DNA of 64,000 nucleotides from positions 2,286,501-2,350,500 of the forward strand of contig NZ_CP013661.2 of NCBI RefSeq assembly GCF_001465835.2, in the 5' to 3' direction. Position numbers and translations under genes: made by a program. Positions 28,124-38,816 of this stretch are shown piece by piece. Numbering within the stretch: position 1 is the stretch's first letter; each line of letters starts with the position of its first letter. The notes under the pieces were generated by a model, which did not search any database, was not told the DNA's origin, and saw only the letters and a list, made by a program, of their open reading frames with translations. This DNA is from Planococcus kocurii (lineage in GTDB: Bacteria; Bacillota; Bacilli; Bacillales_A; Planococcaceae).

Positions 28124-28148
28124 GTTTAAGAAAATGAAGGTCGGGTAA
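28124..28148 (+). promoter_or_regulatory. Candidate SigB promoter of the YsnF-like gene
   Basis: GTTTAA, a 13-bp spacer and GGGTAA: near-perfect match to the SigB consensus, 35 bp upstream of the ribosome site. Confidence 0.75.
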
Positions 28149-28198
28149 TTTCTAAACTAAGCAAACATATTCATATTAAAAAATTGGAGGAATAGTAA

Positions 28199-29296
28199 AT
28201 GACTAACAATAAATTTATGGGTACGTTCGATAACGAAACAGAGGTATTAAGTAAAATTGAAGAACTAAAAGCACAAGGCTCTAAAGAAGATGATATGTAC
28301 GTAATGGCTCGAGACGAAGGCCAGATTTCGATGGTACGTGGACGGACGGATGTAGATTACAAATCATCTGAAGGAAACTGGATGGATAAATTCATGGGCT
28401 TCTTATCAGGAGACGACTCAACACGTGAAGCATTTTCTGGTATGGGAGTAGATAAAGACGAAGCTGACCGCTACTATAACGAAGTACAAAACGGCAAGAT
28501 TCTATTATTTGTAGACCGTGAGTATGGTGCAAACTACGAAGGACAAGCACCTTATGACAATACTTCAACAAGCACTGCAGCAGGAACAATGGGTGCAGCA
28601 GGACTAGGTAGCAACAGAAATCATCTAGATAACGAAGCTGTAGGCAGAGATGGTCTAACAGTAGACACAAATGAAGAAAACGATGTTTATTACAATAAGA
28701 AAAACGATACATTTAGTCGAGACACAACTGACACAGCAGGTGTTGGAAAAGATGCAGGAACAGGCTTTGGTCTTGGATCTGACCGTACAACGGAAGATTT
28801 AAATCGTACAGATCGTCTTGATGGGACGGATAAAAACTTTAACCATGGAGACACAGAAGAAGAGAAACTTCGTTTACACGAAGAACGTTTAAGTGTTGAC
28901 AAAGAACGTGTGCAAACGGGTGAAGTCAATGTTGGAAAACACGTTGTCGAAGAAAACCAAACAATTGAAGTACCAGTAGAACGTGAAGAAGTCTATATAG
29001 AGCGTCGCCCAGTAAATGAAGAAACAACAGGGAATTCCTTTGATAACAATTCTGGATTAACAGGAGATGCATATCAAGAAGGCGAAAACATCCATATTCC
29101 CGTGACAGAAGAACGCGTTGAGGTGACAAAAAAAGATGTAGTAGCTGAAGAAATTATAGTTGGAAAACGTAAAGTACAAGACACAGAAACTGTGAATGAA
29201 ACGGTTCGTCACGAAGAAGCGGATATCGACGAAGATACCATTTCAACAAAAGACAAGTTAAATCATGATGATCACAAAGATCGTGATCGTTTCTAA
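28199..29296 (+). CDS. YsnF/DUF2382 general stress protein with a GSP17M-like N-terminus
   Basis: 365-aa highly charged cytosolic protein. Residues 5-100 resemble the general stress protein 17M domain (GTFDNETEVLSKIEELKAQG, with a SEGNWMDKFMGFLSGDD turn). A Gly/Asn/Thr-rich linker follows. The C-terminal half is the DUF2382 (YsnF/AvaK) domain with KLRLHEERLSVDKERVQTG and repeated V-E/V-P strands. YsnF is SigB-dependent in B. subtilis, and a strong SigB-type promoter is present here. Biochemical role unknown. GGAGGAATAGTAA precedes the ATG. Confidence 0.88.
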   Translation: MTNNKFMGTFDNETEVLSKIEELKAQGSKEDDMYVMARDEGQISMVRGRTDVDYKSSEGNWMDKFMGFLSGDDSTREAFSGMGVDKDEADRYYNEVQNGKILLFVDREYGANYEGQAPYDNTSTSTAAGTMGAAGLGSNRNHLDNEAVGRDGLTVDTNEENDVYYNKKNDTFSRDTTDTAGVGKDAGTGFGLGSDRTTEDLNRTDRLDGTDKNFNHGDTEEEKLRLHEERLSVDKERVQTGEVNVGKHVVEENQTIEVPVEREEVYIERRPVNEETTGNSFDNNSGLTGDAYQEGENIHIPVTEERVEVTKKDVVAEEIIVGKRKVQDTETVNETVRHEEADIDEDTISTKDKLNHDDHKDRDRF

Positions 29297-33615: not shown

Positions 33616-33640
33616 GTTTAAATAGAATCGATAAGGGTAA
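33616..33640 (+). promoter_or_regulatory. Candidate SigB promoter of the VLRF1-type gene
   Basis: GTTTAA, a 13-bp spacer and GGGTAA, with the same geometry as the YsnF-like promoter. The ATG is 40 bp downstream. Confidence 0.72.
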
Positions 33641-33680
33641 TGAGATAACAAGGATGGAATATAAGAAGGAGGATGATTGA

Positions 33681-34505
33681 ATGACCTTATATGACAAAAT
33701 CCAGGAATTGAAAAGTTTTGAATGTCCAGACCGCTGCGTGTTAAGTGTATATTTAAATACCAATCCAGCTGATTCAAATGCTCAAAACGGAGCATGGAAG
33801 ATCCATCTGAAAAATGGCTTGAAGCGATTAGATGAATATTTAACAGCTTCGAACAATGAAAAAGAAATAAAAGCATATAAAAATTTGCGCAAAAAAGTTG
33901 AAAAAGAGATTTTAGACAATCAAAACGATCTTCAAAAAGGTGTTGTCATTTTCGCTTCAGAACACGAAGATCTTTGGTCAGTGCATTATGTACAAATTCC
34001 TGTGAAGACAAGTTTCCATTGGGAAAACAAACCTGTCCTAGAAGAGCTTCGTTATATGTACAAAGCTTATCCATACGCAGGTATCGTGTTGCCAGGATTT
34101 AAAGGGATTCGTGTCATTGATACGTCTATGGGAATTATCAATGAAGAATTTTTTTATGAGTTTGATTCAGGACTTGAAGTCTGGACAGAACAAAAGGGCG
34201 CACGAAGTTCAGGTCGAGTAGGAGCTGGAGGCGGGAGCACAGTCACTGGTGGTGGCGGTGGAAGTCCAGCCGATGAATTAGATCATCGGTTAAGAGAAAA
34301 CTTAGAACGTTTCTACAAAGACATGGGCGGAAAAATGGAGAAGCTGAGAAAAGAACGCAAATGGGAAGAAATTCATGTAGTCGGCGAAGCCGAACATGCT
34401 AAGTCATTTGCTAAAACACTTCAACAAAAACCGAAAAGCTGTGTCTATAAAAACTTGATGAATAATGATTCTGGGAAAATTCTACACGAAGTATTCGAAG
34501 TATAA
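33681..34505 (+). CDS. VLRF1/aeRF1-type release-factor-like protein
   Basis: 274-aa protein related to bacterial homologues of archaeo-eukaryotic release factor 1 (VLRF1 family). It begins LSVYLNTNPAD, has a central domain (VHYVQIPVKTSFHWENKPVLEELRY, then YAGIVLPGFKGIRVID) and a glycine-rich loop (GAGGGST and GGGGGSP, about residues 178-198). That loop is at the place where the VLRF1 family has its peptidyl-tRNA-hydrolysing loop; no canonical GGQ is present, so catalysis is uncertain. Family members act in ribosome rescue. A SigB-type promoter suggests induction by general stress. AAGAAGGAGG precedes the ATG. It is monocistronic. Confidence 0.7.
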   Translation: MTLYDKIQELKSFECPDRCVLSVYLNTNPADSNAQNGAWKIHLKNGLKRLDEYLTASNNEKEIKAYKNLRKKVEKEILDNQNDLQKGVVIFASEHEDLWSVHYVQIPVKTSFHWENKPVLEELRYMYKAYPYAGIVLPGFKGIRVIDTSMGIINEEFFYEFDSGLEVWTEQKGARSSGRVGAGGGSTVTGGGGGSPADELDHRLRENLERFYKDMGGKMEKLRKERKWEEIHVVGEAEHAKSFAKTLQQKPKSCVYKNLMNNDSGKILHEVFEV

Positions 34506-34507
34506 AT

Positions 34508-34541
34508 AAACCACCTCAGCAAAGTTGCTGAGGTGGTTTAT
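34508..34541 (+). terminator. Bidirectional terminator
   Basis: AAACCACCTCAGCAA-GTTGCTGAGGTGGTTT perfect stem. It separates the convergent VLRF1-type and FhuF-type genes. Confidence 0.9.
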
Positions 34542-35221
34542 TTAGGTTTAGGGCAAAATGTGCACGTATTAAAAGATGGCATTTCTTTGTACAAGCAACA
34601 GGTTTTTCTAAGCGGTTTTGAAACAGCTTGTTGCAAGGAAGTGTCACCGAGTAATTTCGCAAGATAAGAAGTTTTGATTGGCTTCCAATTTTCTTCATTC
34701 ATAAGCCATTCTAAGTCTGCGGCGACTTTTCGTGGATTTCGGGTTTCTAGATTAGCGTAAAACCACAAGACAGAACCGAGCACGTTTTCCCAGCAAGTGA
34801 TAGGAGAGATTTTTATGTGTTTTTTAAATTCATCGAGCAACTCGTTTACTTGTCTATGAAGAATGTCATGAAACGCTTGGAACCTCCTGTGTGCGTCAAT
34901 CGGTTGAAATGTCGACGACTTCGCATGGACCTGTAAAAGAGGAAGCCCATAATTATGAACACGGTCAAATTCTAATTCACGCCAATCGACAGAAAAATAC
35001 CCGTTATATTGATCGATTAGGCTAAACTGAGCAGTTACGTAAAGAGCATATTGTCGGAAAAAATAAGATACTGCAACGCCGGCGTTGTCAGTTCCACACC
35101 AGTGCTTTAATTCTTCGATCATTGTGGGGACATCTTGACTAAGTGGCTGTTGTGGAATGCGGTCTGTTGCAACAGATTGCGTGCTTAGCAAGTATTTGGC
35201 TTGTTGCGGGAAAGTCACCAT
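34538..35221 (-). CDS. FhuF-type ferric-siderophore reductase (2Fe-2S)
   Basis: 227-aa protein of the FhuF/IucA-IucC C-terminal-like family. The closing Cys208-Cys209, Cys220 and Cys223 motif (TCCLYKE...NTCTFC) binds a [2Fe-2S] cluster and is diagnostic. These proteins reduce ferric hydroxamate or other siderophore complexes in the cytosol to release iron. There is no siderophore transporter next to it and no Fur box was recognised upstream. It is monocistronic. Confidence 0.85.
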   Translation of the reverse strand: MVTFPQQAKYLLSTQSVATDRIPQQPLSQDVPTMIEELKHWCGTDNAGVAVSYFFRQYALYVTAQFSLIDQYNGYFSVDWRELEFDRVHNYGLPLLQVHAKSSTFQPIDAHRRFQAFHDILHRQVNELLDEFKKHIKISPITCWENVLGSVLWFYANLETRNPRKVAADLEWLMNEENWKPIKTSYLAKLLGDTSLQQAVSKPLRKTCCLYKEMPSFNTCTFCPKPK

Positions 35222-35860: not shown

Positions 35861-37042
35861 TTATACGGTTTGAAGAGCGATTGCTGGACCGAAGAATTCA
35901 AAGTGAATTTGTTCTTCTTTCATGCCGAGTGCTTGCAGTTCTTGAATCATGGCTTCCATGAATGGAACAGGTCCACATACATAAACATCACCTGTGATGT
36001 CGACGTATTCTTCTAAAACCGTACGTGTAATATAGCCTTGTGGCTGGTCAGAGTAAAACGTTTTATAGCGTGCATCAGTCATAGTCGCAACGTATTTCTG
36101 AATATCCTTATCGAAAGCATGCATAGATTCATTGCGTGCAGCGTGAAGGAATGCAGTTGGACGTTCTGGAGTTAACGTAGCCACAGTTTCAAACATGCTC
36201 ATCATCGGTGTAATGCCGACACCACCACTTACAAATGCGACGGGTGTAGTTTTTTCAGTATCGAGAACGAATTCACCTGCAGGAGCACTAACTTCAAAGC
36301 GATCGCCTACATTCATTTCGTCATGAAGATAAACGGAAACGCGGCCGTTTGGATCATTGTCTGCATCGCGTTTAACGGAAATACGGAATTCGTCTGCTTG
36401 AGCTGCTTGAGAAAGACTATATTGACGGTTGAACAAATACTGCTCTCCTGGAATTGACATGCGTAAAGAAATATATTGGCCGGGCTGATAAGCAGGAACA
36501 TCTTTTCCGTCAGCTGGTTTCAAGTAGAAAGAAGTGATACTTTCGCTTTCTTTTTCTTTGCGGACAATTGAAAAGTCTTTAAAGAAACTCCAGCCGTTTT
36601 CTTGAGATTCCATTTTTGCATACATTTCTTTTTCAACGCCGATAAAGGCATCTGCAATTACGCCATATGCTTCTGCCCAAGCATTGATGATGTCATCGGT
36701 TGCTGCATCGCCCAAAACTTCTTTGATCCCCTTTAATAAGTATTCTCCAACAATCGGATAATGTTCCGGTTTAATTCCCAAACTTACGTGTTTATTAGCA
36801 ATTTGGACAACTGCTGGAAGAATAGCTTCTAGATTATCGATATGGACGGCTGCAGCATAAACCGTGTTTGCCAATGCAGCCTGCTGACGACCTTTTTTCT
36901 GGTTCGCGTGATTAAAAATATTTAAAAGTTCAGGATGCGCTTCGAGCATGTTCTTGTAGAATACAGTCGTGATCGCTGTTCCGTGTTCTTCCAATACCGG
37001 TACTGTGGATTTGATGATCGCTCTTGTTTCTTGTGATAACAT
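35861..37042 (-). CDS. hmp: Flavohemoglobin (nitric oxide dioxygenase), copy 1
   Basis: 393-aa flavohemoprotein. It has an N-terminal globin domain (1 to about 140, with the proximal His in NKHVSLGI), an FAD-binding domain (about 150-255, RQYSLS) and an NAD(P)-binding domain (about 265-390, VSGGVGITPMM). It converts NO to nitrate with O2 and NADPH. ATG 37042 has AAGGAGAG at 9 nt; an upstream in-frame TTG is too near. An NsrR-type operator lies 60 bp upstream. A second hmp follows upstream on the same strand. Confidence 0.96.
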   Translation of the reverse strand: MLSQETRAIIKSTVPVLEEHGTAITTVFYKNMLEAHPELLNIFNHANQKKGRQQAALANTVYAAAVHIDNLEAILPAVVQIANKHVSLGIKPEHYPIVGEYLLKGIKEVLGDAATDDIINAWAEAYGVIADAFIGVEKEMYAKMESQENGWSFFKDFSIVRKEKESESITSFYLKPADGKDVPAYQPGQYISLRMSIPGEQYLFNRQYSLSQAAQADEFRISVKRDADNDPNGRVSVYLHDEMNVGDRFEVSAPAGEFVLDTEKTTPVAFVSGGVGITPMMSMFETVATLTPERPTAFLHAARNESMHAFDKDIQKYVATMTDARYKTFYSDQPQGYITRTVLEEYVDITGDVYVCGPVPFMEAMIQELQALGMKEEQIHFEFFGPAIALQTV

Positions 37043-37100
37043 AATCAATCTCTCCTTTTGTTTTCTATATCTTGACTATACTCCTCTAATTCCTTTAAAG

Positions 37101-37538: not shown

Positions 37539-38726
37539 TTATTCACTATTCGTATTTAAATCCATAGCAGGCCCAAAAAATTCGTAGTGAATCTGTTCTT
37601 CTGGAATGCCCATGCGATGTAATTCACGAATCATAATCTCCATAAATAGCGCGGGTCCACAAACATAGACATCACTTGCGGGATCGACATATTCCTCAAG
37701 CATTTCCCGGGTAATAAAGCCGTTGGGTTCATCTGAATAAACAGCTTTATAGCGAGCATCGGCCATCATCTTAGCGTATACTTGAATGTCATTATCAAAT
37801 GCTTGCTGCAGTGGATTACGAGCGCCATGTAAGAAGGTGGTCGGACGCTCTGGTGTAGATTTTGCAACTGTTTCAAACATACTCATCATCGGCGTGATGC
37901 CAACACCGCCACTGATAAATGCGACCGGAGATACCTTCGTCATGTCGAGGACAAAGACTCCGGCTGGAGCACTAATTTCAACGTGATCACCTTCATTGAC
38001 ACCGCTGTGCAAGTAGTTAGAAACGACGCCATTTGGATCGTTGTCATTTTCACTCTTTACCGAGATACGGAATTCATCTGATTTCGGTGCTTGAGAAAGG
38101 CTATATTGTCGAATAACTAAAAACTCTTCACCAGGCATAGAAAGCCGTATCGAAATATACTGACCGGGTGTATAAGGCGGTACGTCAGATCCATCTGCAG
38201 GTTTCATGTAAAAGGAAGTGATGACTTCACTTTCTTTTACTTTACGTGTCACAATAAAATCTTTAAAGAAAATCCAGCTATTTTCCTGCTCTGCCGTTTG
38301 TTTATACATGTCTTTTTCAACGCCGATAAAGGCGTCCGCAATAACGTCATAAGCCTCAGCCCAAGCTTCAAGTATGTCATCAGTTGCAGCATCCCCGAGT
38401 ACTTCCTTCATAGCTTTTAATAAGTATTCGCCAACAATTGGGTAATGTTCAGGCAAGACACCGACACTCACGTGTTTATGAGCAATTTGAACAACTGCCG
38501 GAAGAATTTCCTCGAGGTTATCGATATTAACGGCTGCTGCGTGAACCGCATTAGCTAGTGCTGCTTGTTGACGACCTTGCGCTTGGTTTGCTTGATTGAA
38601 AATATTCAATAATTCAGGATGTGCCACAAAAAGGTTTTCATAAAATCGAGTAGTAATTGCCATACCATATTCCTCTAAAACGGGTACAGTCGACTTAACA
38701 ATTGACCGAGTTTGTTCTGATAACAT
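37539..38726 (-). CDS. Flavohemoglobin (nitric oxide dioxygenase), copy 2
   Basis: 395-aa paralogue of copy 1, with the same three domains, HKHVSVGV around the proximal His, RQYSLSQAP for FAD and ISGGVGITPMM for NAD(P). The two are closely similar along their whole length, indicating duplication. ATG 38726 follows AAAAGGAGTG; a longer frame to 38798 lacks a ribosome site. No full NsrR box is upstream, only a half-like GTATTTT, and nsrR is divergent 90 bp away. Confidence 0.94.
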   Translation of the reverse strand: MLSEQTRSIVKSTVPVLEEYGMAITTRFYENLFVAHPELLNIFNQANQAQGRQQAALANAVHAAAVNIDNLEEILPAVVQIAHKHVSVGVLPEHYPIVGEYLLKAMKEVLGDAATDDILEAWAEAYDVIADAFIGVEKDMYKQTAEQENSWIFFKDFIVTRKVKESEVITSFYMKPADGSDVPPYTPGQYISIRLSMPGEEFLVIRQYSLSQAPKSDEFRISVKSENDNDPNGVVSNYLHSGVNEGDHVEISAPAGVFVLDMTKVSPVAFISGGVGITPMMSMFETVAKSTPERPTTFLHGARNPLQQAFDNDIQVYAKMMADARYKAVYSDEPNGFITREMLEEYVDPASDVYVCGPALFMEIMIRELHRMGIPEEQIHYEFFGPAMDLNTNSE

Positions 38727-38816
38727 AGTAAACACTCCTTTTCGTATTTTGAGGTTCATTTGCTTTCGAAAGAACCAAAAAGTCTCTATAATAAACAATC
38801 AGAAGAGGTGAGTAAA

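Follow-up and report, generated by a model that had tools for sequence, protein, structure and literature searches.

A Balon-like baeRF family 5 protein behind a conserved SigB-type promoter in Planococcus kocurii: a probable two-domain ribosome hibernation factor

A one-gene unit under a conserved SigB-type promoter

The window analyzed here is a 64,000-nucleotide stretch of the Planococcus kocurii genome (contig NZ_CP013661.2, positions 2,286,501 to 2,350,500). It contains a gene for a Balon-like protein of the baeRF_family5 group, referred to below as the baeRF5 gene, whose features are collected in Table 1. The 5' neighbor is a divergent gene with a DUF3243 domain (Pfam), and the 3' neighbor is a convergent gene (34538–35221) with no Pfam match at E ≤ 0.001. 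The hairpin that lies ahead of the convergent gene is probably a terminator common to both genes, and it was not among the sites listed by a terminator scan of the window. This arrangement agrees with an earlier sequence-only reading of the locus, which had described a single-gene unit. On the minus strand, the window also carries tandem flavohemoglobin-like genes with globin, FAD, and NAD domains (35861–37048 and 37539–38798).

Table 1. Positions of the baeRF5 gene, its regulatory elements, and the domains and residues it encodes
Feature	Position in window	Strand	Basis and remarks
SigB-type -35 element GTTTAA	33616..33621	+	Motif scan; GTTTNN conserved in 37 of the 38 distinct upstream regions
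SigB-type -10 element GGGTAA, 13-nt spacer	33635..33640	+	Motif scan and conservation
Ribosome binding site AAGGAGG	33666..33672	+	Read directly; 8 nt 5' of ATG
baeRF_family5 / Balon-like protein, reading frame	33681..34505	+	ATG start, 274 aa; Pfam, family profile, predicted fold
N-terminal domain (decoding-center type), residues 1–130	33681..34070	+	AlphaFold2; eRF1 N-domain 2llx over 1–130, Z 12.7, 120 residues
Middle domain (peptidyl-transferase-center type), residues 131–274, PF18846	34071..34502	+	Pfam 131–273; eRF1 middle domain 2hst over 124–274, Z 10.1
Glycine-rich disordered loop, residues 174–194	34200..34262	+	pLDDT <50
Arg203	34287..34289	+	Near-invariant, as is R210 further along the same post-loop helix; 99% each of 77 proteins
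19-bp hairpin, probable terminator	34503..34544		Fold prediction, -29.8 kcal/mol, z -10.5; ahead of convergent gene

Most of the gene neighborhood is retained in the 13 named Planococcus-group loci, in all of which the convergent gene adjoins the baeRF5 gene. In five Sporosarcina loci, none of eight tested neighbors lies within the flank. A search of the P. kocurii genome with the baeRF5 profile finds one gene, that of the window, and plasmid and phage collections hold no mobile copies at E ≤ 1e-5. The P. urativorans Balon model finds no second Balon in the genome, but as the window protein itself escapes this model at E ≤ 0.001, the result says little. Matches to the baeRF5 profile occur in 61 of the 151 genomes of the source's taxonomic family and in 49 of the 299 genomes of the class. 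Two Planococcus genomes (G013 and G019) carry a second family member that is 30% identical, and one of these second copies (L085) lacks the SigB pattern. In two others, the gene is interrupted by a change of reading frame (L048, 5001–5833, equivalent to G033; and G022), reflecting either assembly error or real decay.

The full promoter motif, GTTTAA-N13-GGGTAA on the plus strand (33616–33640), was found by a motif scan of the window. Calling a promoter from motif occurrence was rejected: the loose SigB pattern is found three times in the window against 2.84 expected by chance, so that a single occurrence proves little, and the genome-wide count of 91 + 49 is a mild excess over a backwards control of 56 + 56. 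The promoter is accepted as real because it is conserved across relatives, not because of these counts. After removal of 10 exact duplicates from 48 upstream regions of close relatives, 37 of the 38 distinct regions carry the SigB consensus given for Bacillales in PMC9847131, 62–71 nt 5' of the start, the sole miss being a Sporosarcina bin (L049). A slightly larger set of loci has the consensus in 39 of 40 and the exact form GTTTAA-N13-GGGTAW in 30. Across 34 regions selected for the N13 motif, GTTTA and GGGTA reach 2 bits per position, a value mostly forced by the selection, and 11 of the 13 spacer positions stay below 1 bit, with 1.02 and 1.81 at the other two. Some flanking positions are also conserved, as these regions are closely related.

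A class-wide set of 97 loci, reduced to 77 distinct family proteins by dropping duplicates and the split frame L048, has the SigB pattern upstream in 42 of the 77. Swapped and reversed motifs are found in none of them, and 200 single-base shuffles yield a mean of 0.6 and a maximum of 3. The pattern is retained in four of the five Sporosarcina loci whose neighboring genes are not shared, indicating that the promoter travels with the gene. Genomes other than Planococcus and some Sporosarcina-like ones have the strict pattern once (L068) and relaxed matches that are weak, and a SigB link was not adopted for them. No sigma-70 consensus site was found on the plus strand upstream of the gene. The conservation and the empty controls uphold the near-consensus SigB promoter proposed earlier, and this sequence evidence suggests that the baeRF5 gene is switched on from a general stress promoter.

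The same genome encodes a SigB protein scoring above the curated cut-off, in one operon with RsbW and a preceding anti-sigma antagonist, both also above their cut-offs. The SpoIIE-type phosphatase genes on both sides of these are taken as RsbU- and RsbX-like, and the antagonist gene is preceded by GTTTAA-N14-TGGTAT. Within the window, the gene at 28124–29296, which encodes YflT and DUF2382 domains, has GTTTAA-N13-GGGTAA just upstream and is likely a second SigB gene. The hibernation factor gene hpf, about 451 kb from the baeRF5 gene, is preceded by GTTTTA-N14-GGGAAT. Forty Planococcus genomes with hpf yield 30 loci and 29 distinct upstream regions, of which all 29 contain GTTTYA-N14-GGGAA and five the strict SigB pattern. 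In 28 of these regions, the SigB-like site overlaps a motif that we take to be SigH-like; this overlap could explain the conservation, leaving the hpf SigB promoter only suggestive.

Family assignment and predicted fold

Residues 131–273 match baeRF_family5 (PF18846) with an E-value of 1.3e-39 and 135.8 bits against a cut-off of 27, and the same match is found in 53 of 53 family members, the window protein included (E ≤ 0.1). The NCBIfam MSMEG_1130 (Balon) model also matches, at 1.4e-15 over model positions 16–249 of 387, with a score of 57 bits that falls far below the equivalog cut-off of 480. A family profile built from 53 of the 76 listed family proteins was searched against 177,635 PDB sequences and retrieved two distinct sequences at E ≤ 1, both of them Balon. 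These are MSMEG_1130 (8v9j, 1.2e-11) and a chain of 8rd8 (6.7e-7), deposited as 'methyl-accepting chemotaxis protein', which is the P. urativorans Balon structure. As a single query, the window protein reaches PDB Balon at only 0.015.

The sequence-only reading had placed the protein in VLRF1 and named a profile search as the check that could refute this; that search returned baeRF_family5 instead. At E ≤ 1, the window protein had no listed match to a VLRF model (HMMER filters remove most matches above 0.1), acVLRF1 is touched by two of the 53 family members (best 0.0015), and the GGxSQ motif occurs in none of the 77 proteins. Membership in VLRF1 was rejected on these grounds. The protein and the VLRF1/Vms1 clade have the aeRF1 superfamily in common, and it is at this level that the earlier statement of kinship to aeRF1-type release factors holds.

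The AlphaFold2 model has a mean pLDDT of 83.7 and is good except at residues 174–194 and a few other places. In Foldseek, the top five rows are Balon–ribosome complexes (best 6.4e-13), followed by eRF1 and aRF1, with Rv2629 Balon in 22nd place. VIA-align ranks MSMEG_1130 Balon best, with Z 16.6 (rmsd 3.9, 241 residues aligned, Balon residues 5–256) and 16.3 (rmsd 3.7). The aRF1 and eRF1 structures come close behind, reaching Z 14.3 but at an rmsd of 8–15, P. urativorans Balon has Z 12.6–12.8 (rmsd 5.4–5.8), and Rv2629 has Z 10.5, so that archaeal and eukaryotic RF1 rank by fold ahead of the latter two. Kinases and ParM also appear, at Z about 7, and were discounted as sharing a common arrangement. 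The model thus predicts an aeRF1-like fold that is closest to MSMEG_1130.

Loop, conserved residues, and a missing domain

The glycine-rich loop is disordered in the model, and, as had been noted earlier, it lacks GGQ. Its topology and the family-profile match to Balon suggest that it sits at the place of GGQ and of the Balon lasso loop. The window protein has neither NIKS nor GGQ; across the 77 family proteins, NIKS is absent and GGQ occurs in three (L044, L046, and L058).

The function first proposed for the protein was release or rescue, induced by stress, with peptidyl-tRNA hydrolyzed through an alternative loop. Its aeRF1 ancestry and a glycine-rich loop in the GGQ position fit such an activity, as do a glutamine, Q171, found in 66% of the 77 proteins and the GGQ tripeptide within the loops of three. 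However, no loop glutamine is kept throughout the 77 proteins; Q171 is the best column and lies at the loop base, three residues after W168. The three GGQ tripeptides are not retained in close relatives of their holders and are read as coincidence, so that GGQ catalysis was set aside. The interval from W168 to R203 spans 24–50 residues in 33 Planococcus-type proteins versus 19–27 in 44 others, a total range of 19–50, whereas loop length is narrow within each catalytic family described by Burroughs and Aravind (PMC6514570). According to the same source, the combination of no kept glutamine and unconstrained loop length marks baeRF-1 families that lack catalytic activity. Peptide release therefore appears unlikely, the nearest solved relatives being Balons, and we regard the stress-induced hydrolysis of peptidyl-tRNA as quite improbable.

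Other positions are far better conserved. The arginines of the post-loop helix, which have been linked to large-subunit rRNA (PMC6514570), are accompanied in the N-terminal domain by the near-invariant T27, W39, K44, and K48 among the 77 proteins. In the family-profile alignment, the stretch from T27 lies opposite THREHP of Balon, in an ambiguous register; the HP motif of Balon is presumably the His-Pro within this segment. The near-invariant residues bear on the possibility that the protein has left the ribosome for an RNA-binding or regulatory role, keeping only an inherited aeRF1 fold. The loss of a domain and the expanded low-complexity loop in Planococcus would be compatible with such a departure, but the conserved N-domain residues and post-loop arginines suggest that ribosomal contacts have been retained, making an off-ribosome role very unlikely.

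Balon consists of three domains, the C-terminal one of which contacts EF-Tu (PMC10901736). The window protein ends at aligned Balon residue 256 of 375, and its NCBIfam match stops at position 249; the EF-Tu-binding domain is absent. It further differs from Balon in belonging to a Pfam family of its own and, in Planococcus, in its longer glycine-rich loop. Among 299 Bacilli genomes, the MSMEG_1130 model has 52 matches, 48 of which end by position 287 of 387, in open frames of 121–325 amino acids that include a few fragments. The other four reach position 387 (G059, G094, and second matches in G156 and G238), in open frames of 398–424 amino acids. The short form is thus the rule among Balon-model matches in the sampled genomes. 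G094 and G059 are small genomes with a 398-amino-acid Balon-like protein (loci L132 and L133) that matches the model as far as its last position, and neither yielded a short form. Burroughs and Aravind describe one baeRF-1 family that retained the N-terminal domain and lost the Pelota domain (PMC6514570), which we infer to be family 5. The published Balon survey discarded 806 sequences shorter than 300 amino acids, a step that excluded short proteins of this kind from its data set, yet it names YocB as a homologue (PMC10901736).

The missing domain also bears on a Dom34/Pelota-like role, in which a non-catalytic rescue factor would aid the splitting of stalled ribosomes. Burroughs and Aravind offered ribosome disassembly as an alternative function (PMC6514570), and the predicted fold matches Pelota/Dom34 at Z 7.2–10.8. 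Eight of the 10 Pelota/Dom34 rows, however, begin at residue 131 or 132 and cover the middle domain only, and Pelota is described as meeting its GTPase partner through the C-terminal domain that the window protein lacks. A part in ribosome splitting is accordingly considered unlikely.

A probable hibernation factor

The window protein shares the fold of its N-terminal and middle domains with P. urativorans Balon, MSMEG_1130, and Rv2629, and with the first two also sequence. All three likewise lack NIKS and GGQ and show stress-linked expression. In a control search, the baeRF_family5 profile also finds a match in B. subtilis, presumably YocB, of about 260 amino acids. Balon fills the ribosomal A site under stress, and its homologue YocB is induced by heat, cold, and stationary phase (PMC10901736); yocB also appears in a SigB regulon list (PMC7824861). 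The most credible explanation, which we hold with reasonable though not full confidence, is that the product of the baeRF5 gene is a ribosome hibernation factor of the Balon type with two domains, a member of baeRF family 5 that probably corresponds in Planococcus to YocB and is produced under active SigB. The protein is probably a non-catalytic A-site factor, and shielding idle ribosomes in stress is a more likely function than releasing unfinished proteins.

Under this model, stress would lead SigB to transcribe the baeRF5 gene as a one-gene unit from the promoter identified in silico. By analogy with Balon, the predicted N-terminal domain would dock at the decoding center, and the middle domain would reach the peptidyl-transferase center, placing the glycine-rich loop where the Balon lasso loop wraps A2602. 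Filling the A site in this manner, with no hydrolysis of peptidyl-tRNA, would inhibit idle or stalled ribosomes and keep them silent and intact. Lacking the domain with which Balon grips EF-Tu, the protein would have to act without EF-Tu or with another partner. It would probably work alongside HPF/RaiA, with both presumably occupying the same ribosomes. HPF/RaiA proteins belong to a different family and use different sites from Balon-type proteins; the two are presumed to have a common role, and in this genome hpf, too, is preceded by a SigB-like promoter.

The earlier remark that the link is little studied is fair: in the accessible literature, YocB appears in one sentence of the Balon paper (PMC10901736) and in the SigB regulon list (PMC7824861). 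Searches for YocB together with Balon, hibernation, or the ribosome returned only the former, and among the matches listed from 2024 on that connect Balon with B. subtilis or sigma B, no other Balon paper appeared. No functional test or ribosome binding of a Balon without its C-terminal domain was found in this accessible literature. Earlier publications already cover the family, its link to stress, and its kinship to Balon, and the interest of the present protein lies in hibernation without EF-Tu.

The partnership of Balon with EF-Tu-GDP has been suggested to sense energy and start hibernation (PMC10901736). More tentatively, the dominant Balon form of Bacilli might be a two-domain, EF-Tu-independent hibernation factor, in which case the EF-Tu (GDP-sensing) step of Balon would be dispensable, and the decision to hibernate might in this lineage have shifted away from the sensing of nucleotides on the ribosome and onto SigB-driven transcription, together with HPF. 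A natural version of Balon that lacks the EF-Tu domain, is common in Bacilli, and in Planococcus stands behind a conserved SigB promoter offers a direct way to ask whether EF-Tu is needed.
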